Positions 1,355-23,086 of a stretch of DNA of 45,738 nt are shown one piece after another. Numbering within the stretch: the stretch's first letter is position 1; each line of letters starts with the position of its first letter. Source of the DNA: an uncultured Mediterraneibacter sp. (GTDB lineage Bacteria; Bacillota; Clostridia; Lachnospirales; Lachnospiraceae); the NCBI GenBank assembly GCA_944383695.1, contig CALWQP010000024.1:1-45738 (forward strand). Direction: 5' to 3'. The notes beneath the pieces were generated by a model. It was not told where the DNA came from. It saw nothing but the letters and a program-made list of their open reading frames with translations, and ran no database searches. The position numbers and the translations under genes were made by a program.

Positions 1355-1858
1355 CTATTGCAGAGTAACAGCGCTCTTATTCTTTTTTCGCAAAGAAATA
1401 TAAAGATACACGGAACTACATACATCTAAGCAAAACGTAAACTGCATAATAATATTGATAATCAGAGTGGCCGCGGATATTTTATGTGCCCGATATGCTT
1501 TCAATAATCCACTTATGCCAAACATAGTAGAGGGAAGTAAAAGCGAATAATCAAAAAGTACCAGAAACAGTAAAATCGGTATTGCCATAAAAAACACACC
1601 CATTGCCGCAAGTCCGAAAGGAAAAATCAAACAAAAAATAGGAATGTTGCATAGTTTCAGCAGCATATTCCAAAACAGCAGTTGATTCTCGGTATAGCCT
1701 ATTCGCGGAAGAATAAAAGCATAGATCATATTAGGCAAAAATACAAACAGGTACGATAGTTTCCAGACATTAAAAAAAAGACTTGATTGAAATATAAAAC
1801 TTCCGATCAAAACATATGGCATAATCAGTAACAGTATCATTGGTATGCTTTTTTTCAT
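1355..1858 (-). CDS. Small multi-pass membrane protein, unknown function
   Basis: 167 residues from the ATG at 1858, chosen because AAGGAGAG lies 7-8 bases upstream; an earlier in-frame ATG at 1885 has no such site. The protein is almost entirely hydrophobic, with about five predicted membrane segments separated by short loops, and a short basic/polar tail (SLRKKNKS). No catalytic motif is visible and I cannot assign a named family with certainty. It stands alone between an insertion-sequence remnant upstream and its own terminator downstream. Base composition is AT-rich, like the rest of this accessory stretch. Confidence 0.7.
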   Translation of the reverse strand: MKKSIPMILLLIMPYVLIGSFIFQSSLFFNVWKLSYLFVFLPNMIYAFILPRIGYTENQLLFWNMLLKLCNIPIFCLIFPFGLAAMGVFFMAIPILLFLVLFDYSLLLPSTMFGISGLLKAYRAHKISAATLIINIIMQFTFCLDVCSSVYLYISLRKKNKSAVTLQ

Positions 1859-1962
1859 TGGGTTTCTCTCCTTCTTCATAAACAAATTTCAATTTCTGGG
1901 AATATTATACTTTTATCCCATACCATTTACAAGAAAAATGTGTAGAGTTATCTGTTAGCAGG

Positions 1963-2432
1963 TGTAGGAGTGTCAGACATATGTTACACCATGCTGAATA
2001 AATTCCTTCAGGACAGTCTGTGGGGATTTCCAGCCCAGAGATCTCATAGGAACAGGTTATAGTCCCTGAGGTTATAGATCTGGAGCTGTCGGGAAAAGTC
2101 CTGAAAGGAATAAAAAGTATGAGAAGCATAAAACCGTTCATTATTTTTTGGGGGGGCTGCGTTCCACTTTCCCATTATGCCGGGGGGTTTATACTTTACA
2201 GCAGCTTTAGAAACCCAATAGCGGTTTGCGTAGTTAATAAGTAATAGACGATATCTCATATCCCGTGTTATACTAGCCGTGCGGAAATGCATCCTTTCTT
2301 GTTTTGTTTGGTCGCTAAAACTACAACACATAAACGGTATTTCCGTCTTTTTAATTATTCAGTTGTAACACATGTATTGTAATCCTACAGAATTTATTCA
2401 GCATGGTGTAACATATGTTTGACAAACCTACA
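1963..2432 (-). mobile_element. Internally deleted insertion sequence (MITE-like) with 43-bp inverted ends
   Basis: The ends 1963-2005 and 2390-2432 are near-perfect inverted repeats. Inside, on the minus strand, are two pieces of an IS3/IS481-type transposase: an N-terminal helix-turn-helix part (about 2180-2331, LLINYANRYWVSKAAVKYK) and the C-terminal end (GWKSPQTVLKEFIQHGVTYV then stop, 1971-2030), whose codons and stop lie in the inverted repeat itself. The catalytic DDE core is missing. The right end also encodes the same C-terminal EFIQHGVTYV on the plus strand. A degenerate extra copy of the outer end sequence sits at 2364-2389, suggesting nested or stacked ends. No clear target-site duplication was seen. 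Confidence 0.75.
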
Positions 2433-2543
2433 TTCTCAGAAAAATCAAAATTATAAAATACAGGGGCTTAATATTCCGAAAGCCATAGGGTTATCAGAAA
2501 AAGGCAGGCCCTTTTAGCTAAACGCAAGGAGATGAATAAAAGT

Positions 2544-3248
2544 ATGGGGAGTTTATTTTTGTTAATATTATATTTAGTAATATTAGGGCTTCAAATTACT
2601 CTATTAGTGTGTTCTATAAAAAGGGGAAAAAGGAAATATTGGATAAGAGCGCTTTTTTTAGAAATTTTTTCTATAATAATATCTTACATATTTTTTAAAT
2701 ATTATGCCAGTTTACCTGGTTATGGGTTTCTGTCGGGGTTATCGTATCTATTAGAAGTTTTGCTTAGTTTTGGGGCGGGCATTTTTTATGCCATTATGTT
2801 ATTTATTACTGTTTGCACTATGATGTTAGTATTTGAAAAACATCAAAAACAACAGGGGAAAAAATATGTAAATCCAGTCGTATCTATAATAGCTGTTCTA
2901 TCTATAGCCATTGGGATCTTATGTTTATCACATGAAATAGTGGATAATTGGGGTAAGAAAGAGGCAGTAGGTACGGTCATAAATTTTGAAGAAGTACGGA
3001 GTGGCACAGGAGAAACTGAACTGTGGCCTATTGTTAGAGTTTATGTTGATGGGGAAGCGTATGAAGATTATTTCCCTATATCGGCCACGGAAGTTGGCGA
3101 TAGTGTTAAAATTTATTATTATCTGGGGAATGAAGAAAAGTATTTTATTACGCCTTATATTACAGATAATAAAATTATTTATATACCAGCTTTTATAATA
3201 GGAATATTAATAATAATCTTGAGATTTAAAGATGATCTATTTAAATAG
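2544..3248 (+). CDS. DUF3592-like membrane protein
   Basis: About 234 residues. The ATG at 2544 is preferred because AAGGAG (2526-2531) lies 12 bases upstream; the ATG at 2532 touches the site and is too close. There are four hydrophobic segments in the first ~135 residues, then an external beta-rich domain (about 145-210: GTVINFEEV...WPIVRVYVDGEAYEDY...VGDSVKIYY) and a final membrane helix. The domain layout and the G-T-V / P-I-V-R-V pattern match DUF3592 proteins; their function is unknown. The gene is much more AT-rich than the flanking PHP and asnA genes, which suggests horizontal acquisition. No partner gene is apparent. Confidence 0.7.
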   Translation: MGSLFLLILYLVILGLQITLLVCSIKRGKRKYWIRALFLEIFSIIISYIFFKYYASLPGYGFLSGLSYLLEVLLSFGAGIFYAIMLFITVCTMMLVFEKHQKQQGKKYVNPVVSIIAVLSIAIGILCLSHEIVDNWGKKEAVGTVINFEEVRSGTGETELWPIVRVYVDGEAYEDYFPISATEVGDSVKIYYYLGNEEKYFITPYITDNKIIYIPAFIIGILIIILRFKDDLFK

Positions 3249-3281
3249 GTTCAGCGTCATACTCCAAAACAATGTAAACTT

Positions 3282-3503
3282 TCAGTTCTGAACCTCCTGC
3301 ATGATTACTCCATATATCTTTTTCCCATCAAATGAAACAACCAGAATATGGGCGCCGGTCTCAGCCCGCTGAAAGTCGCGGTAACTGCAGACAACCTTGC
3401 GGCACCGGGTGCCGGTATCAGGAAAAACCACATCCATATAGTAGGTGCGGTTGTTCTGATTGCTAAAAGAATCCAGAAAAAATAAACATTCCTCCAGAGC
3501 CTT
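3282..3503 (-). pseudogene. Headless 73-codon gene remnant
   Basis: An open frame on the minus strand ends at a TGA at 3282-3284 and begins right after a TAG at 3504-3506, with no plausible start codon or ribosome site. It would encode a polar beta-rich segment including YYMDVVFPDTGTRCRKVVC and HILVVSFDGKKIYGVI. Its G+C and codon use look like real coding sequence, so it is probably the 3' remnant of a lost gene. The family is not recognised. Confidence 0.4.
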
Positions 3504-3580
3504 CTAGCCCTAGCCCATCAAGTTTTATATTGTGTAAAGTGATAAGTAGAAAGAACAGGCCAGGGCCGTGCATATACACG

Positions 3581-4396
3581 TCATGAATGATAATATAGTT
3601 CAATCGGGTCGATCGGATCAAATGGATGTTCTTCCACCATCTTTTTATTTCTTCCGCGCCGCTTTATGAGTTCCCCGCTCTTATTGTATATCCAGAAGGA
3701 ATAGACAAGGAGCTTGTTGATCTTTCCGATCCGTTCCTTTGTTGTTTTCTCATAGAGCGTCCCGCCCGCCTTAAAAGGCGTTTTTTTGTGTATCAGGGAT
3801 ATCAGTTCTGTTTCGCATGTGACTGGCTCGGGAAGGATGGTATAGCCCCGGCCGACACAGCCCGGTTTATGAGAATCGCTTCCGCCGGTTGTTACCTTTC
3901 CGTATTTTTTCGCAAGCTTTTCCGCTCCGGAATTGGACTGGGATGACTCGCAGCTGTTAAATGCCTCCACGAAGTCAAAACGCTTTATGATCTCCGGGGA
4001 CTGGTAGAATTTTTTTGTGTTGGTGAAACTCATATATTTTTCCCCGCACGGATGCGCCGGGCCGAGCACGCCGCCGTTGCGGTGGACCAGATCGATCAGC
4101 ACGGCAAGCGGCATGCCGCGCATTTCCAGCAGACGCATCTTTACTCCTTCAGGCATGATCACGATAATATGTCCCGCATCCCGGGTGTCGTATTCAATGC
4201 CTTTGAGCACGACAAAATCTGTATGCTTCTTTCCCTTTATGTGTTCTTTCCAGTGGCGGTAGCCATTATATGTGTCATGGTCCGTGATGAGCATGCCCTG
4301 AAATCCATGCTGCTTCAGTATTGTAATATATTCGTCCAGCCCCACTTTGCTGTCAATGGAGCCCTCCTTCACATGGCAATGCATGTCGATCTTCAT
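3581..4396 (-). CDS. PHP-domain metal-dependent phosphoesterase
   Basis: 271 residues. The polymerase and histidinol phosphatase fold is indicated by the metal ligands in order: H6-x-H8 (MHCH), D39-H40-D41 (TDHD), E68, H115 (PAHPC), and D174/H176 (GGSDSH). Such stand-alone proteins hydrolyse phosphoesters using two or three metals in the cytoplasm; the substrate cannot be read from sequence. The C-terminal ~60 residues are a basic extension (KRRGRNKK) beyond the core. The gene is monocistronic, has its own promoter, and is separate from the genes further upstream on the same strand. Start ATG at 4396 is preceded by a weak AAAGAGG-like site. Confidence 0.88.
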   Translation of the reverse strand: MKIDMHCHVKEGSIDSKVGLDEYITILKQHGFQGMLITDHDTYNGYRHWKEHIKGKKHTDFVVLKGIEYDTRDAGHIIVIMPEGVKMRLLEMRGMPLAVLIDLVHRNGGVLGPAHPCGEKYMSFTNTKKFYQSPEIIKRFDFVEAFNSCESSQSNSGAEKLAKKYGKVTTGGSDSHKPGCVGRGYTILPEPVTCETELISLIHKKTPFKAGGTLYEKTTKERIGKINKLLVYSFWIYNKSGELIKRRGRNKKMVEEHPFDPIDPIELYYHS

Positions 4397-4455
4397 ATAC
4401 CTGTCCTCTTTTCTGGTGAGTACACCTGTTAAAATTGTCTGACTATACTGCCCTT

Positions 4456-4485
4456 ATTATACATCATTCTGGTTACAAATGACAA
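4456..4485 (-). promoter_or_regulatory. Promoter of the PHP gene
   Basis: TTGTCA (4480-4485), 18-bp spacer and TATAAT (4456-4461) on the minus strand, about 60 bases before the start codon. Confidence 0.6.
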
Positions 4486-4653
4486 CCGGAGGACACGGAC
4501 TTTTCAGCAATTTTCAGCATTTGTCGGGATTTTTCTGGAGGTGAATGTAAATGTTTAGCTGGGAAGGAAAGCTATCAAAGAAAATCGGCACAGCCTGAGG
4601 GAGAAAGCAGAAGGCAGCAAGCGTCATGAACGATTGTTGCCTTCGGGCATGTT

Positions 4654-5529
4654 TTATTTGACAGGTACCCAGAATCCATAATCCGCGGTGCCATTTTTCC
4701 ATTGCCCCCGCACCTGATATATGGTGCCTGGCTGTGCGGTAAACTCCAGATTTCCCTTCTCATTCTCTTTTACTTCTACAGCGGCTCCTTCAGGTAACTG
4801 AGCCGCGCTGTCCTGATACTGTCCAAGCAGAGAATCTTCCCATGAAAGCAGCTGGATACTCTCAGGCTTTTCATCAAACTCTAATTCCATTTGAATAGGT
4901 TCTGAAAGCTTTGTTATCTCTGTAGATTCCGTCTGCAGAATATGAGGTCCATCTGTGGTAATGGTCTGACTTTCCCCATTTTGGTCCTCATAGGTCCAGG
5001 TATAGCTGAGAGTGTCTGGGATAATTACAGTCACCTGCGCCAGGTCATCTGTATAGCATACATTCAGATTTGGACGCTGTGAGGGATCTTTTTCCACAAA
5101 AAGCTCCTCAAGATAATGACTATATTCTTCCATATATTTCTGATTTGCCTGTTCCGTTCTCTGGACTTTTGTGATCCCATTGTACTGTGCAGGATAAGAT
5201 TCGGCGATAACTCCGTTTCCCCAGATATCCAGCACATCTCCGTTATTTAAATCCTTCTCAGTAATTTTTTCTCCATCTTCATCGTAGAGTTCTCCCTGGG
5301 GGATCGCTCCGGTAAAGGGATATTCATCTGTCAGATTGATAAAGATGCTGTTGCCGTCTTCCTTCTGTAAATAGACCGCTTTCATGGCATTTTCACCCTC
5401 CAGCTGCTGTGCCTGCGCCTGGGGTACTTCTTTCATAAAATGATTTCGGATCCCGGCTGCTGCCGCTAAAATGATCAGTGCCGCCAGCACAATGCCGATG
5501 TAGATTATTTTATTTTTTTTCTTTAGCAT
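4654..5529 (-). CDS. Membrane-anchored extracytoplasmic protein, DUF3221-like segment
   Basis: 291 residues from the ATG at 5529, which follows AGGAGGG; the longer open frame upstream lacks support. Residues 1-5 are basic (MLKKKNK) and 6-27 form one membrane helix or uncleaved signal (no lipobox Cys), so the rest should face outside. Residues about 60-125 contain the pattern NGDVLDIWGNGVIAESYPAQ, which resembles DUF3221-type beta-barrel domains. The remainder is beta-rich and acidic, ending in a conserved-looking YGFWVPVK. Function unknown. It follows a small two-helix membrane protein at about 140 bp on the same strand and may be co-transcribed with it. Confidence 0.75.
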   Translation of the reverse strand: MLKKKNKIIYIGIVLAALIILAAAAGIRNHFMKEVPQAQAQQLEGENAMKAVYLQKEDGNSIFINLTDEYPFTGAIPQGELYDEDGEKITEKDLNNGDVLDIWGNGVIAESYPAQYNGITKVQRTEQANQKYMEEYSHYLEELFVEKDPSQRPNLNVCYTDDLAQVTVIIPDTLSYTWTYEDQNGESQTITTDGPHILQTESTEITKLSEPIQMELEFDEKPESIQLLSWEDSLLGQYQDSAAQLPEGAAVEVKENEKGNLEFTAQPGTIYQVRGQWKNGTADYGFWVPVK

Positions 5530-5667
5530 AAGCCCTCCTGATATTTTTTTTGCACCTAAGTATATCATAACCTTCAGGTTCGCACAATGTAAAGTGATGG
5601 TTCTGAAAACAGACCTCTTTATTTTCATTAAAATCCACATCTGACCACATGCGATCATCCCCACAGT

Positions 5668-5847
5668 TTATCGATATATTCTGGCGGATCCGTGCAGCAT
5701 CGCGCATAGGCAGCCAAACCATGCTGCCGCGTAGACCGCAGATGGGATCTGCATTTCTGTAAAGCAGAAGAGCACCATAAGTATGGAAAGGACAGCCATT
5801 CCCGCCGCCGCTACAAGTCCCCCGAGTAAAGATTTTCTGATATACAT
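5668..5847 (-). CDS. Small two-helix membrane protein
   Basis: 59 residues from the ATG at 5847, preceded by AAAGGTG; the earlier in-frame ATG at 5898 has no ribosome site. It has two hydrophobic segments (LLGGLVAAAGMAVLSILMVL and AVYAAAWFGCLCAML). No family is recognised. It lies between the WYL regulator (upstream) and the DUF3221-like protein (downstream), all on the minus strand. Confidence 0.55.
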   Translation of the reverse strand: MYIRKSLLGGLVAAAGMAVLSILMVLFCFTEMQIPSAVYAAAWFGCLCAMLHGSARIYR

Positions 5848-19127: not shown

Positions 19128-19156
19128 TTGACAAAAAGAGGCGTCAGTGATATTAT
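19128..19156 (+). promoter_or_regulatory. Near-consensus sigma-A promoter for a transcript without a clear gene
   Basis: TTGACA (19128-19133), exactly 17 bp, TATTAT (19151-19156). Start of transcription expected near 19163. One of the best promoters in the window, yet no gene longer than 32 codons follows before the terminator at 19875. Confidence 0.75.
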
Positions 19157-19278
19157 AAAACCATCCAAAAGAGATTAAGAAAAAATCTCAAGAGGATATT
19201 TATCTAAGAGAACAGAGATTGAATCGTTGATCAGTTGTTCGATTAGGTTAAAAATAAAATCAGCAGGAGGTAAGTCCC

Positions 19279-19377
19279 ATGGACAGTATAGTTTCAGTTG
19301 ATCATCAATATGTCAGTGGTACGGCAAATGTAAGTTCCTGTGATGAAAGAGACCTTTGCTGGAGAGAAGATCAATAA
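19279..19377 (+). CDS. Small reading frame with strong ribosome site, possibly a broken gene
   Basis: 32 codons (begins MDSIVSVDHQYVSGTANVS, ends CWREDQ) with AGGAGG eight bases before the ATG. After its TAA (19375-19377) the same frame stays open for a further 43 codons to 19509, which suggests either a nonsense-mutated gene of about 76 codons or chance. The ATG sits in the loop of a GTCC/GGAC hairpin. No family is recognised. Confidence 0.35.
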   Translation: MDSIVSVDHQYVSGTANVSSCDERDLCWREDQ

Positions 19378-19874
19378 TCCGGAAATAAACAGGATGAAAA
19401 GAATAGATCGGAGAGTTCGTTAATCCGGATGAAAATCTACCAAGATTTGACATTTGCAGACGTATTGAATATAGATGCCACATATAGCAGAATTTCGAAA
19501 GATGTGTAAAGAAACATTGAGTAGAATGTCATTTTTATAGAAAAGGCCCACAGTTATAGAAGTAATAATTCAGTAAGCGGTTGGAATATCGATGAACGGT
19601 ACTGCTTCAGCTGAACGATTATAGGATGAATAACTCAGGAGACCTTTCAAATATAAAGTGATACCCAAAGCGTAAACGAAAGTGAGGCGCACAAGGGATG
19701 CTGTTATGAACCTCAATTTGTTATTGAAGGAGGGAAGATTTAATAAGCAGGTCTTAATAAATCGACCGAAGATCAAATAACAGATGGCAGAGGTCTTTGC
19801 AGGAACAAAAATCTAAGCATTGCCTCCGATTTTAAAAATATAAAAGAAAAATGAAAAAATTAAATAAAATATAA

Positions 19875-19911
19875 AATGCGTCTTCAATGTCAATTGAGGA
19901 TGCATTTTTTT
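19875..19911 (+). terminator. Strong rho-independent terminator
   Basis: A 13-bp stem (19875-19887 with 19894-19906, two G-U pairs), 6-nt loop and a run of T. It ends the transcript from the promoter at 19128; a new promoter overlaps its T-run. Confidence 0.85.
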
Positions 19912-19938
19912 GACATTGAAGGTTGCATATGATAAACT
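19910..19938 (+). promoter_or_regulatory. Promoter of the TPR/ATPase gene
   Basis: TTGACA (19910-19915), 17-bp spacer, TAAACT (19933-19938), starting in the T-run of the preceding terminator. Confidence 0.65.
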
Positions 19939-20023
19939 ATTGAAAGAATATCGGCTTGTACCCGGAGGGGACAGGAAGATAAATACTGACCGATGAAATA
20001 TCATTTTCGACGAGGTGAATGCG

Positions 20024-23000
20024 GTGGATAAGTATGATTATAAAGTAAAGACCGAACAGATGCTCGAACTTATGGAGGACGGTGCATATTGGCAGGCAGC
20101 GGAGATCGCGGATACGATCGACTGGAAGAGAGTCCGCAACACAGGGATGCTGGCAAATGTCAGTGAAATCTATGAAAAGAATAAAGAGTATCAGAAGGGT
20201 TATGATATACTGAGTCTTGCTTACCGCCACGCGGAGGGCAGCCGGAAGATCATCAGCCGTCTGTGTACTCTTGCCCTGAAGACAGGGAATGTGGACGAAG
20301 CAATCGATTATTATGATGATTTTATACAGACAGCTCCGAAAGATCCGAATCAGTATATCCTGAGATATCAGATCCTCCGTGCACAGAGAGCCCCGGTCGA
20401 ACAGCAGATCGAAGCTCTTGAAGAGTACAAGAAGTCTGAGTATATTGAAGAGTGGGCATATGAATTGGCGCAGCTGTACCAGGAGGCCGGGATGACGGCT
20501 GAGTGCCTGGAAGAGTGTGATGATCTGATCCTCTGGTTCAGCGAAGGGCAGTATGTGTATAAAGCAATGGAACTGAAGATGCAGTACAAGCCTCTGACGC
20601 CGTCCCAGCAGGAGAAATATGACCGCAGGTATGAAAAGCTTTCTGCGGAAACAGAAGAAATGCCGGATGTCATTTCCTATGCTGAGGCGAAGAATGAGGC
20701 TCAGGATACGTCAGATGACAGTGATGGAGAAGATGCCGCAGACAGAGAAGCAGTCGAAGCTGAGATCCGTGTGGATGAGGACGCGACCGCGCAGGAAGCA
20801 GCGTCTGATGGCGAAAATGTGGACGCAGACGCTACGGCGGAGGAAAAGCCAAAGAAAAAAATCGGGGATACAATGCCTCTTGGTGAAGCCTTGAGGAAGC
20901 TGCTCGGTCCGGAGAGAGAAGGCGCGACAAGCGAACAGGTAGACGAAGAAGAACCTGAACTGGACGATCTTGCGGACGCGATCGGCGAGATTGAGTCTGT
21001 GGCGGATCTGGATATTGTTGCCCAGATTGCGGATGAGAAAATGAAAGCGGCTGCGGCGGCTGGTGAGATGACAGAGATCACACCGGAGAAGCTTGGTGTC
21101 GAGGAGGCACAGGAGATCGAGCTTGCAGATGCGGAAGATCTGTTGGTGGACGAGGAAGATATGGCAGAGCAGAGCGCAGAAGAGGATGGCGCAGAGGATA
21201 TTATAGAGCGTGATGTGGAAGATAGAAAAGATACACGGTCAGTTGATGAGCAGATTACAGGGCAGATGAGCCTTGAAGATATTCTATCCGGTTGGGAGGG
21301 AGCGCCGGAAGAAGCAGAAGAATCAGACGAGGATCTGTTTGAGGAAGATGCGGAAGAATCAGATGAGGATCTGCTTGAAGAAGATGCGGAAGAATCAGAT
21401 GAGGGTCTGCTTGAGGAAGATGCGGAAGAATCAGATGAGGGTCTGCTTGAGGAAGATGCGGAAGAATCAGATGAGAATCTGCTCGAGGAAGACGCGGAAG
21501 AAGTATCAGATGATGTGACAGAAGGGGAAGTGACAGGGGTTAAGATGGAGACAAAGAAGACAACCGAACCGATTCTGCCGCCGGATATCCAGCGGATGAT
21601 CGATGAAATCGAAGGTGTGATTCCGCCGGAAGAAGAGAAACCGGCGAAGTCGGCTAAGAAGACATTGGAAAGAAAGCCGGAGGAGCCTCGTGAAAATATG
21701 GGTGAGGTCACTGAATCACTCCGCATAGACGATGATGACTTCGATTTTGATGAGGATGAAGAGTTCGAGGATGTAGAAGATTACTTTGATGAGGATGAAG
21801 AACTCGGGGATGCGGAAGATTATTTCGATGAGGATGAAGAACTCGGGGATGCGGAAGATTATTTCGACGAGGATGAAGAACTCGGGGATGCGGAAGATTA
21901 TTTCGACGAGGATGAAGAACTCGGGGATGCTGAAGAGTACTTCGATGAGGATGAACTATTAGAGGCAGATGCGGAAATCCCTGAAGAAAAGGAAGGATTT
22001 GCGGATGATGAGGAAGAATATCTCGGTGAAAGTGAAGACCTTGAGGTCGAGGCGCCGGATATCGATGCGGAATTCCGTGTGAATCCGGAACACGCAGACC
22101 AGGAGGATGACCGAGAAATCCCGGATGACGATGATGATGACATGGATATCCTCTCAGCTACAACGCCTCTGAGCCGCAAAGAGACGGCGAAGATGATTGC
22201 TACGGGCAAGACGGCGCCTCTGCCGCTGGATGAGATATCGGAAGCATTGTCCATGTCTGATACCGGATTTATCGTACATGGCCGTTATGACCTGGAGATG
22301 CAGAGTGGGATTGGGACTAGGGCAGGCCTTACAGAAGAGCAGAAGAAGCTGTTTTCCTATTTCGTGCCTGTACGCGGGATGAGCGAACAGCTGGTAGACG
22401 TACTGGAGCAGGATAAGAACTGTACGAACAGAAAGGGCACATCAAAGTCTGGAAACCTGCTCATAATCGGAAGCAAAGGAAGCGGAAAGACAGTGCTTGC
22501 CGTGGATGTGGTAAAGGCAATCCAGAAGCAGCGCAATATTAAGCAGGGCAAGGTGGCGATTATTACAGGCGATTCCCTCAATAAGAAGAAGATCAGCGAT
22601 ATTTTTGACAAGCTGTACGGCGGCGCGCTGATCATTGAGAAGGCGGGGAAAATGAACGAAAAAACAGTTGCCCGGCTGAATAAGGCGATGGAGAGGGATA
22701 CCGGAGAACTGCTGATCGTTCTTGAGGAACAGAGAAAGCCGCTTGACCGCCTCTTATCTTCAAACCGCGAGTTCAGGAGAAAGTTCACCTCCCGCCTGGA
22801 GATACCGATCTTTATCAATGACGAGCTTGTTACCTTCGGTCAGACGTATGCACAGGAAAACGGATACCGCATTGATGAGATGGGGATTCTGGCCCTGTAC
22901 AGCAGGATTGATTCACTACAGAGAGAGGACCATGCGGTCACTGTTGCAGAGGTGAAGGAAATCATGGACGAGGCGATCCGGCATTCGCAGACGGCGTCAG

Positions 23001-23086
23001 CAAAAAAGCTGATGAAGCGCGTGTTTGGTAAGAACACAGACGAGGCGGACAGAATCATTCTTTCAGAGAAAGATTTCAATATCTAA
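20024..23086 (+). CDS. TPR protein with acidic repeat arrays and C-terminal P-loop ATPase domain
   Basis: About 1020 residues. The GTG at 20024 is chosen because GAGG lies eight bases upstream; the GTG at 20015 overlaps that site. Layout: N-terminal TPR-like helices (about 1-210); a long, very acidic disordered middle (about 215-740) with two different tandem arrays; and an AAA+-like domain (about 760-1020) with Walker A GSKGSGKT near residue 815, a Walker-B-like GALIIEKAG and a sensor-like LLIVLEEQ. No membrane segment or signal peptide, so cytosolic. The function is not known; the architecture suggests an assembly or scaffold ATPase. It is followed by its own terminator and then glgB, a link that is positional only. 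Confidence 0.8.
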   Translation: MDKYDYKVKTEQMLELMEDGAYWQAAEIADTIDWKRVRNTGMLANVSEIYEKNKEYQKGYDILSLAYRHAEGSRKIISRLCTLALKTGNVDEAIDYYDDFIQTAPKDPNQYILRYQILRAQRAPVEQQIEALEEYKKSEYIEEWAYELAQLYQEAGMTAECLEECDDLILWFSEGQYVYKAMELKMQYKPLTPSQQEKYDRRYEKLSAETEEMPDVISYAEAKNEAQDTSDDSDGEDAADREAVEAEIRVDEDATAQEAASDGENVDADATAEEKPKKKIGDTMPLGEALRKLLGPEREGATSEQVDEEEPELDDLADAIGEIESVADLDIVAQIADEKMKAAAAAGEMTEITPEKLGVEEAQEIELADAEDLLVDEEDMAEQSAEEDGAEDIIERDVEDRKDTRSVDEQITGQMSLEDILSGWEGAPEEAEESDEDLFEEDAEESDEDLLEEDAEESDEGLLEEDAEESDEGLLEEDAEESDENLLEEDAEEVSDDVTEGEVTGVKMETKKTTEPILPPDIQRMIDEIEGVIPPEEEKPAKSAKKTLERKPEEPRENMGEVTESLRIDDDDFDFDEDEEFEDVEDYFDEDEELGDAEDYFDEDEELGDAEDYFDEDEELGDAEDYFDEDEELGDAEEYFDEDELLEADAEIPEEKEGFADDEEEYLGESEDLEVEAPDIDAEFRVNPEHADQEDDREIPDDDDDDMDILSATTPLSRKETAKMIATGKTAPLPLDEISEALSMSDTGFIVHGRYDLEMQSGIGTRAGLTEEQKKLFSYFVPVRGMSEQLVDVLEQDKNCTNRKGTSKSGNLLIIGSKGSGKTVLAVDVVKAIQKQRNIKQGKVAIITGDSLNKKKISDIFDKLYGGALIIEKAGKMNEKTVARLNKAMERDTGELLIVLEEQRKPLDRLLSSNREFRRKFTSRLEIPIFINDELVTFGQTYAQENGYRIDEMGILALYSRIDSLQREDHAVTVAEVKEIMDEAIRHSQTASAKKLMKRVFGKNTDEADRIILSEKDFNI
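21312..21497 (+). repeat. Tandem 36-bp coding repeat array
   Basis: About five copies of a 12-residue acidic unit (ESDEDLLEEDAE and close variants, one with F for L, two with G, one with N). The high DNA identity between copies points to recent expansion by slippage or unequal exchange. Confidence 0.85.
21767..21965 (+). repeat. Second tandem coding repeat array, 39 bp unit
   Basis: About five copies of a 13-residue acidic unit (DYFDEDEELGDAE), the inner ones nearly identical in DNA. It differs in length and sequence from the first array in the same gene. Copy number is likely to vary between strains. Confidence 0.85.

Follow-up and report, generated by a model that had tools for sequence, protein, structure and literature searches.

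What is made from a unit of chromosome that has a promoter at one end, a terminator at the other and no intact gene between them? Such a unit lies at positions 19128-19911 of the window, by which we mean the whole 45,738-nucleotide stretch of Mediterraneibacter DNA analysed here. A preliminary description of the window proposed that the unit is a candidate large structured RNA, and set against this proposal a 32-codon frame within it and the prospect of a decayed gene. Large bacterial RNAs with elaborate conserved folds are few, and the functions of the best known, OLE, ROOL and GOLLD, are poorly understood (PMC12286853).

Here we compare the unit with its homologues. We find a conserved RNA core together with a frame that is conserved, open and indifferent in sequence, and whose codons are also strands of the structure. 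This combination points to translation switching a trans-acting RNA, beyond the supply of a peptide. The reading towards which we lean, with slightly more confidence than doubt, is that the unit specifies a trans-acting RNA of about 750 nucleotides whose fold would be gated by ribosome entry into a micro-ORF, the peptide itself being unimportant.

The predicted transcription unit

The unit opens with a sigma-70-type promoter on the plus strand (TTGACA-17-TATTAT with an extended TG, 19128-19156) that matches the consensus at 11 of 12 positions. Reported already in the preliminary description, it is present in the sequence and also in most relatives: a strict promoter precedes the RNA in 76 of 86 homologues whose flank is long enough (in two further copies it is too short), against 0.8% of trials with base-shuffled flanks. 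At the far end, on the same strand, lies an intrinsic terminator, a hairpin and U-run at 19873-19911 (-19.2 kcal/mol, z -7.0, covariation score 7). Its stem, earlier counted at 13 bp, has 16 bp here. The terminator is present in 60 of 84 homologues with enough flank, and none was found in the other 24; a simple consensus scan of the window does not list the one at 19873-19911.

The predicted RNA of about 750 nucleotides runs from 19162 to 19911 on the plus strand, its presumed 5' end lying about 6 nucleotides past the -10 box. The prediction draws on the alignment of 50 homologues described below, on covariation and on a fold z of -7: the 749-nucleotide predicted transcript folds 7 standard deviations better than its dinucleotide shuffles (n=20). 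The region 19128-19911 is present as a single copy within its own genome. From these sequence features we take 19162-19911 to be an independently transcribed RNA, its transcription being predicted.

Frames within the unit

Could the unit instead be what is left of a protein gene? It contains no intact gene. The longest frames have 68 amino acids on the minus strand and 32 on the plus strand. Of 49 homologues, 3 keep the 68-residue frame open along 90% or more of its length. Two shorter minus-strand frames give a mixed picture: one of 31 residues is open in 40 of 49 homologues, with its start kept in 20, and one of 26 residues is intact in 28 of 49, with its start kept in 11. When the longest frame within the RNA is taken from each of the 50 homologues, the median length is 63 amino acids and the maximum 122 (L024), and these frames lie at varying positions, mostly on the minus strand. 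Among the ten frames of at least 25 amino acids in the source species, none is conserved as a gene would be, the one exception being that the 32-codon frame keeps its start.

The decay of a protein gene had been suggested by the observation that the 32-codon frame continues open beyond its TAA. That observation stands in the source species and is not conserved among homologues. No frame spans the whole region in any of the 50 homologues, and the RNA helices of the region are conserved and covary. We give a decayed gene next to no credence.

Distribution

How widely does the RNA occur? For searches at the level of genus, family, order and class we used R2, a model built from the sequence of the RNA's 5' core. 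R2 detects the RNA in 52 of the 58 genus genomes, usually as one copy per genome, and in all 35 of those with at least 90% completeness and at most 5% contamination. By blastn (E<1e-20), homologues of 70-94% identity are found in 51 of the 57 other genus genomes; in 41 genomes outside the genus nothing better appears than 41 bases matching the A-rich 3' tail (E 7e-8). In the family search R2 finds the RNA in 89 of 397 genomes and 75 of 334 genera. Outside the Lachnospiraceae, in samples of 295 genomes from the order and 291 from the class, all matches have E values of 9e-4 or weaker; these weak matches (best E 9.4e-4) were taken as noise. As far as searched, then, the RNA appears to be a class specific to Lachnospiraceae.

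A core pattern run over a one-per-species genome collection gave 73 matching stretches. The named carriers belong largely to Mediterraneibacter, with Faecalicatena, Schaedlerella, Muricomes, Merdimonas and Hespellia, as well as [Ruminococcus] torques and [Ruminococcus] faecis. Since the carriers are common Lachnospiraceae of the gut, [Ruminococcus] torques ATCC 27756 (L130) among them, the RNA can be tested in culturable strains. One contig (C24 of genome G395) carries two copies of the RNA core, at 101793 and 104633, about 3 kb apart, against the usual single copy. The 16-base pattern ATGTGTAAAGAAACAT has 111 scattered matches in viral contigs, which were taken as chance and not each inspected; later analyses omit the corresponding loci, L134 to L243.

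Chromosomal neighbourhood

The RNA is followed on the same strand by a TPR/AAA-type gene (20015-23086), and the possibility of a cis-acting leader or attenuator of this gene must be considered. In 56 of 74 pattern-scan loci the TPR/AAA gene follows the RNA on the same strand within 1.2 kb; it lies farther away in 2 and is absent from 5 with enough flank, and 11 end too soon. Divergent copies of the RNA such as L306 and L317 also precede the gene. Against a leader, a terminator and then a second promoter stand between the RNA and the gene, the latter being the gene's own (TTGACA-17-TAAACT, plus strand, 19910-19938), which overlaps the terminator U-run. The RNA lies elsewhere in other genera, for example about 170 kb from the TPR/AAA gene in G286. 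The gene is present in 275 of 299 family genomes, far more than have a detectable RNA. The RNA thus does not always lie upstream of the gene, and the intervening terminator and promoter speak against a single shared transcript. We consider a cis-acting leader very unlikely and take the adjacency to be old synteny.

Among 70 loci from the family search, mostly divergent, the TPR/AAA gene is found in the stretch examined in 35; for L289 and L341 at least, that stretch is too short. Where the gene was not found near the RNA, no single neighbour family is shared, the largest group being one of 8 upstream proteins. On the other side of the RNA, yfhO lies upstream in 29 of the 74 pattern-scan loci. 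In 20 further genera, a marker scan of the region upstream of the TPR/AAA gene finds a frame of at least 70 amino acids close by in most; at L413 the same region has RNA-like marks.

Several features of these surroundings may be recorded. The next promoter's -35 box takes its first bases from the terminator U-run, and most of the relatives compared in the alignment share this overlap. The TPR/AAA gene has long acidic repeats, EESDEDLLEEDAEE and DEDEELGDAEDYF, between its TPR and AAA parts (21273-21960). At L119 the RNA is separated from the TPR/AAA gene by two related frames that resemble transposases (1811-5822), in a record that is partly masked. At L089 an Rfam T-box leader (2161-2364) lies about 2 kb upstream of the RNA. 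At L116 and L133 (1-1860) the terminator is broken by a prophage, which carries a tyrosine integrase (Pfam Phage_integrase) and lies at the 3' end of the RNA gene; at L279 the same integrase adjoins the RNA on its downstream side. The three loci may represent one strain. tRNA genes serve as phage attachment sites, and by analogy the RNA gene may be an attachment site too.

A pseudoknotted core

What fold would such an RNA adopt? In the model derived from the homologues, all on the plus strand, a 5' hairpin with helices a1 and a2 (19202-19248) precedes a core that is predicted to be closed by long-range pairing. The 5' strand of helix b, GCAAAUG (19324-19330), coincides with micro-ORF codons 16-18 and pairs with CAUUUGC (19451-19457). 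The 5' strand of helix c lies at 19334-19340 and that of helix d, the long-range helix that closes the core, at 19350-19359; the covariation tests place their 3' strands at 19800-19806 and 19787-19796, respectively. Hairpin e (19377-19382/19425-19430) bears in its loop AUCGGAG (19407-19413), the 5' strand of pseudoknot helix f, which pairs with CUCCGAU (19824-19830). Helix g joins 19483-19490 to 19701-19708. Beyond the 5' strand of g lie a near-invariant block of alignment columns, AUGUGUAAAGAAACAU (19502-19517), the long hairpin h-m-i (19528-19662) and a hairpin with a GNRA-type cap, ACGAAAGU (19676-19683), which the preliminary description had also seen and which reads GCGGAAGC or GCGGGAGC in aligned relatives.

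The evidence for these helices comes from alignment A3, in which 101 full-length copies were reduced to 50 homologues. An earlier alignment held 57 copies, with a core set of 47 that excluded truncated copies and four whose ends were not located. Covariation among homologues had been put forward as a check on the RNA. An R-scape-like G-test of single pairs, corrected by APC, found none at E<0.05. Covarying helices are nevertheless present, with partial confirmation outside the alignment. In place of the G-test, compensatory events were counted on the tree, per pair and then per helix. Counted per pair, three or more compensatory branches occur in 15 pairs (null mean 5.2, maximum 14) and four or more in three pairs (null mean 0.1, maximum 1). 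The null for the helix test consisted of 60 alignments that preserve the tree and the site rates. Helices a1, a2, g, i and j, the pairing 19540-19545/19644 and the terminator score at least 5 (the 5' hairpin and g exactly 5), a value reached by 0 of the 60 nulls. For helices b and e the score is 4 and the null mean 0.1. Helices d, with a score of 3 (null mean 0.83), and f, with a score of 2 (null mean 6.5), are not significant alone, and helix c is nearly invariant.

A second test scores the structure as a whole. The named structure of 118 pairs is 94.7% paired in the 50 homologues against 36-45% with slid partners, and both partners have changed in 60 of its 118 pairs, where shuffles give 26.4 and 0 of 500 reach 60; the structure was derived from the same sequences that are scored, which makes the test circular. 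Within it, helices b and c are 100% paired, d 99.8%, f 99.7% and e 98.3% (with three of its six pairs changed on both sides), and the 5' hairpin has 93.1% of its cells paired.

Because of this circularity we examined sequences outside the alignment, for which 30 loci were listed and 28 found. In this set of 28, whose independence is incomplete (four members come from the same genus, L089 and L255 are duplicates, and many had been inspected beforehand), helices b (91% paired), f (89%), m2 (87%), c (86%) and m1 (79%) stand clear of the slid controls. Pairing is weaker in helices h (74%), e (69%), d (65%) and i (62%), and a1, a2 and g are unsupported there despite their significance in the helix test. 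Individual sequences illustrate how pairing is rescued: helix b reads AUGAGUG/CACUCAU in L054, and helix f reads ACCGAAG/CUUCGGU in L089. The case for c, d and f rests on the 118-pair test and the outside sequences, since the helix test leaves them non-significant or invariant.

The core is pseudoknotted because b crosses c, and f crosses b, c and e. We regard as well supported by these comparisons a predicted pseudoknotted core made of helices b, c, d, e and f, together with a long hairpin that is absent in some members. The candidate large structured RNA of the preliminary description thus gains the support of covarying helices, in part confirmed outside the alignment, and of the absence of a spanning frame.

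A micro-ORF that runs into the core

The 32-codon frame with its good ribosome site had been counted as evidence against an RNA. Both are where they were described, on the plus strand: the Shine-Dalgarno sequence AGGAGG at 19265-19270, and a micro-ORF at 19279-19377 that has 32 codons in the source species. As an objection to the RNA, however, the frame falls away, as it belongs to the element: its start and its openness are kept, whereas its amino acids and the position of its stop vary.

How strictly is the frame kept? We analysed 88 distinct homologues out of 90 rows, both rows of L031 (one a chance match, the other genuine) having been dropped; entry to the set required both a CA(A/G)TA(T/C) block and an SD-like stretch, which kept out L252, for example. 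The start codon is NTG in 87 of the 88 (ATG in 58, TTG in 25, GTG in 4), and in 86 the start and CAAUAU lie a whole number of codons apart. In-frame stops occur in 2 of the 88 spacers between these points; the other two frames have stops in 58 and 34. When the spacers are grouped into 42 clusters, 2 have an in-frame stop against 18.2 +- 3.2 expected. Stops are avoided in a spacer that changes fast, with 222 inferred changes in codons 2-9 among 78 aligned sequences. From the sequences, then, the micro-ORF is likely to be translated.

The simplest use of such a frame would be to make a peptide. In a dual-function RNA, a fast-evolving small peptide would be the product, beside a function of the structured RNA itself. 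This alternative draws on the good Shine-Dalgarno sequence, the NTG start and the frame that is open in most copies, and on a QYxSGxA-like motif that recurs across the family. The pattern of substitution speaks against it. Of the 222 changes in codons 2-9, 33 are synonymous against 48.8 expected, and in codons 10-17 of the same 78 sequences the figure is 19 of 69 against 19.0 expected; codons 2-17 thus have no synonymous excess and no purifying signature on the amino acids. The QYxSG codons coincide with bases conserved at the level of RNA. The 3' end of the micro-ORF is variable, the C-terminus being read in different registers in different species, and some lineages keep the RNA and lose the frame. 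The 32-residue peptide of the source species has no Pfam or NCBIfam match. A peptide product seems to us unlikely. As a separate observation, changes in codons 2-9 (19282-19305 and its homologues) fall 91, 79 and 52 times at codon positions 1, 2 and 3, the reverse of normal coding.

If the peptide does not matter, is the frame needed at all? The RNA might be a purely noncoding large RNA in which the start is no more than a docking element for the ribosome or its 30S subunit, or in which the frame is incidental. Strong conservation at the level of RNA around CC-N-NTGG and UCAAUAUG is consistent with this, as is the loss of the frame in some lineages. Among the 40 most divergent loci, 34 have at least 12 open codons (one with a CTG start, and L323 in a shifted register); the other six, L310, L327, L328, L333, L339 and L341, lose the micro-ORF and keep the RNA, so that translation must be dispensable in some lineages. 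However, both the avoidance of stops in a fast-changing spacer and the three-base spacing from the start to CAAUAU point to elongation. We judge a purely noncoding RNA to be quite improbable.

Ribosome entry as a proposed gate

A gated, trans-acting RNA would accommodate both the kept frame and the free peptide. From about codon 16 onward, the micro-ORF also supplies strands to helices b, c and d. A ribosome initiating on the micro-ORF would have to open the pseudoknotted core, and the folded core would have to halt a ribosome. Ribosome entry would in this way gate the fold of the RNA, and hence its activity in trans; translation of the micro-ORF would matter and the peptide would not. We arrive at this proposal because translation seems to be selected, the peptide does not, and elongation must enter the RNA core. 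We infer that the RNA is transcribed, that the micro-ORF is translated, that the two states exclude each other and that the RNA acts in trans. As the position of the stop varies, with the micro-ORF of one subclade terminating directly after QYESGxA, ribosomes would leave at differing points.

A bolder version of the proposal is that the RNA is a sensor of translation: loading of ribosomes onto the micro-ORF would unfold the core, the product would be irrelevant, and the RNA would represent a new trans-acting class. We offer this tentatively, as a possibility that may well prove wrong. If it were true, the fold or activity of a 750-nucleotide RNA would report ribosome supply or the rate of initiation in Lachnospiraceae.

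Comparison with known RNAs

Does the RNA belong to a class already described? At gathering scores, Rfam has no match in the window for this region, and across 14 divergent loci it yields nothing but an unrelated T-box. The classes suggested at the outset fare no better: at the scores used, none of the Rfam models for ROOL, GOLLD, OLE, HEARO and raiA matches, nor does the group II intron covariance model. The RNA could still be a very divergent member of one of these five classes, to which its size, pseudoknots and GNRA hairpin are similar in kind. Besides the lack of gathering-score matches in the window and the divergent loci, relaxing the threshold to E values up to 10 on the region gives five unrelated weak matches only, and we consider such membership very unlikely. 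We found no description of this RNA in the literature searched, which was mostly of subscription-free papers. That the RNA forms a class absent from Rfam is, on these sequence searches, well supported.

ROOL forms an RNA-only octameric cage. As described in PMC12286853, ROOL env-120 has 659 nucleotides and many GOLLD RNAs exceed 800; multiple pseudoknots are predicted for ROOL, and both RNAs have elaborate folds, unknown function and phage or prophage genes that often lie near tRNA islands. The present RNA resembles them in its large size, elaborate predicted fold and unknown function. It differs in its chromosomal locus and in leaving their Rfam models unmatched: the window contains no tRNA, and no phage record matches the RNA, the one viral-contig match being at a prophage edge.

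OLE RNA has Oap protein partners. It is described with about 600 nucleotides, an intricate secondary structure and a mostly Gram-positive distribution (PMC12286853). Our RNA is likewise large, intricately structured and found in Gram-positive hosts, and differs in that the OLE model of Rfam does not match it and that no conserved partner gene emerged from the comparison. The raiA motif RNA, or ModT, is presented in PMC11706538 as a conserved structured RNA of Bacillota with pseudoknots; in contrast, the RNA here has about 750 nucleotides and a conserved translation start, and does not match the Rfam model.

In its housekeeping-like presence, usually as one copy per genome, the RNA recalls tmRNA, RNase P RNA and 6S RNA, of which the source genome has its own copies elsewhere. 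The tmRNA model RF00023 has no match in the window, and the tmRNA of the genome lies on contig C12.

In its anatomy the RNA recalls dual-function RNAs. RNAIII of Staphylococcus is one such RNA, with a short frame and a ribosome site. VcdRP of Vibrio likewise combines an RNA function of its own with a short frame. A dual-function RNA would be expected to have a peptide under selection, and no synonymous excess of that kind was found here. The RNA described here shares with RNAIII and VcdRP a short frame with a ribosome site, and differs from them in that its peptide shows no constraint on sequence and its frame enters the RNA core.
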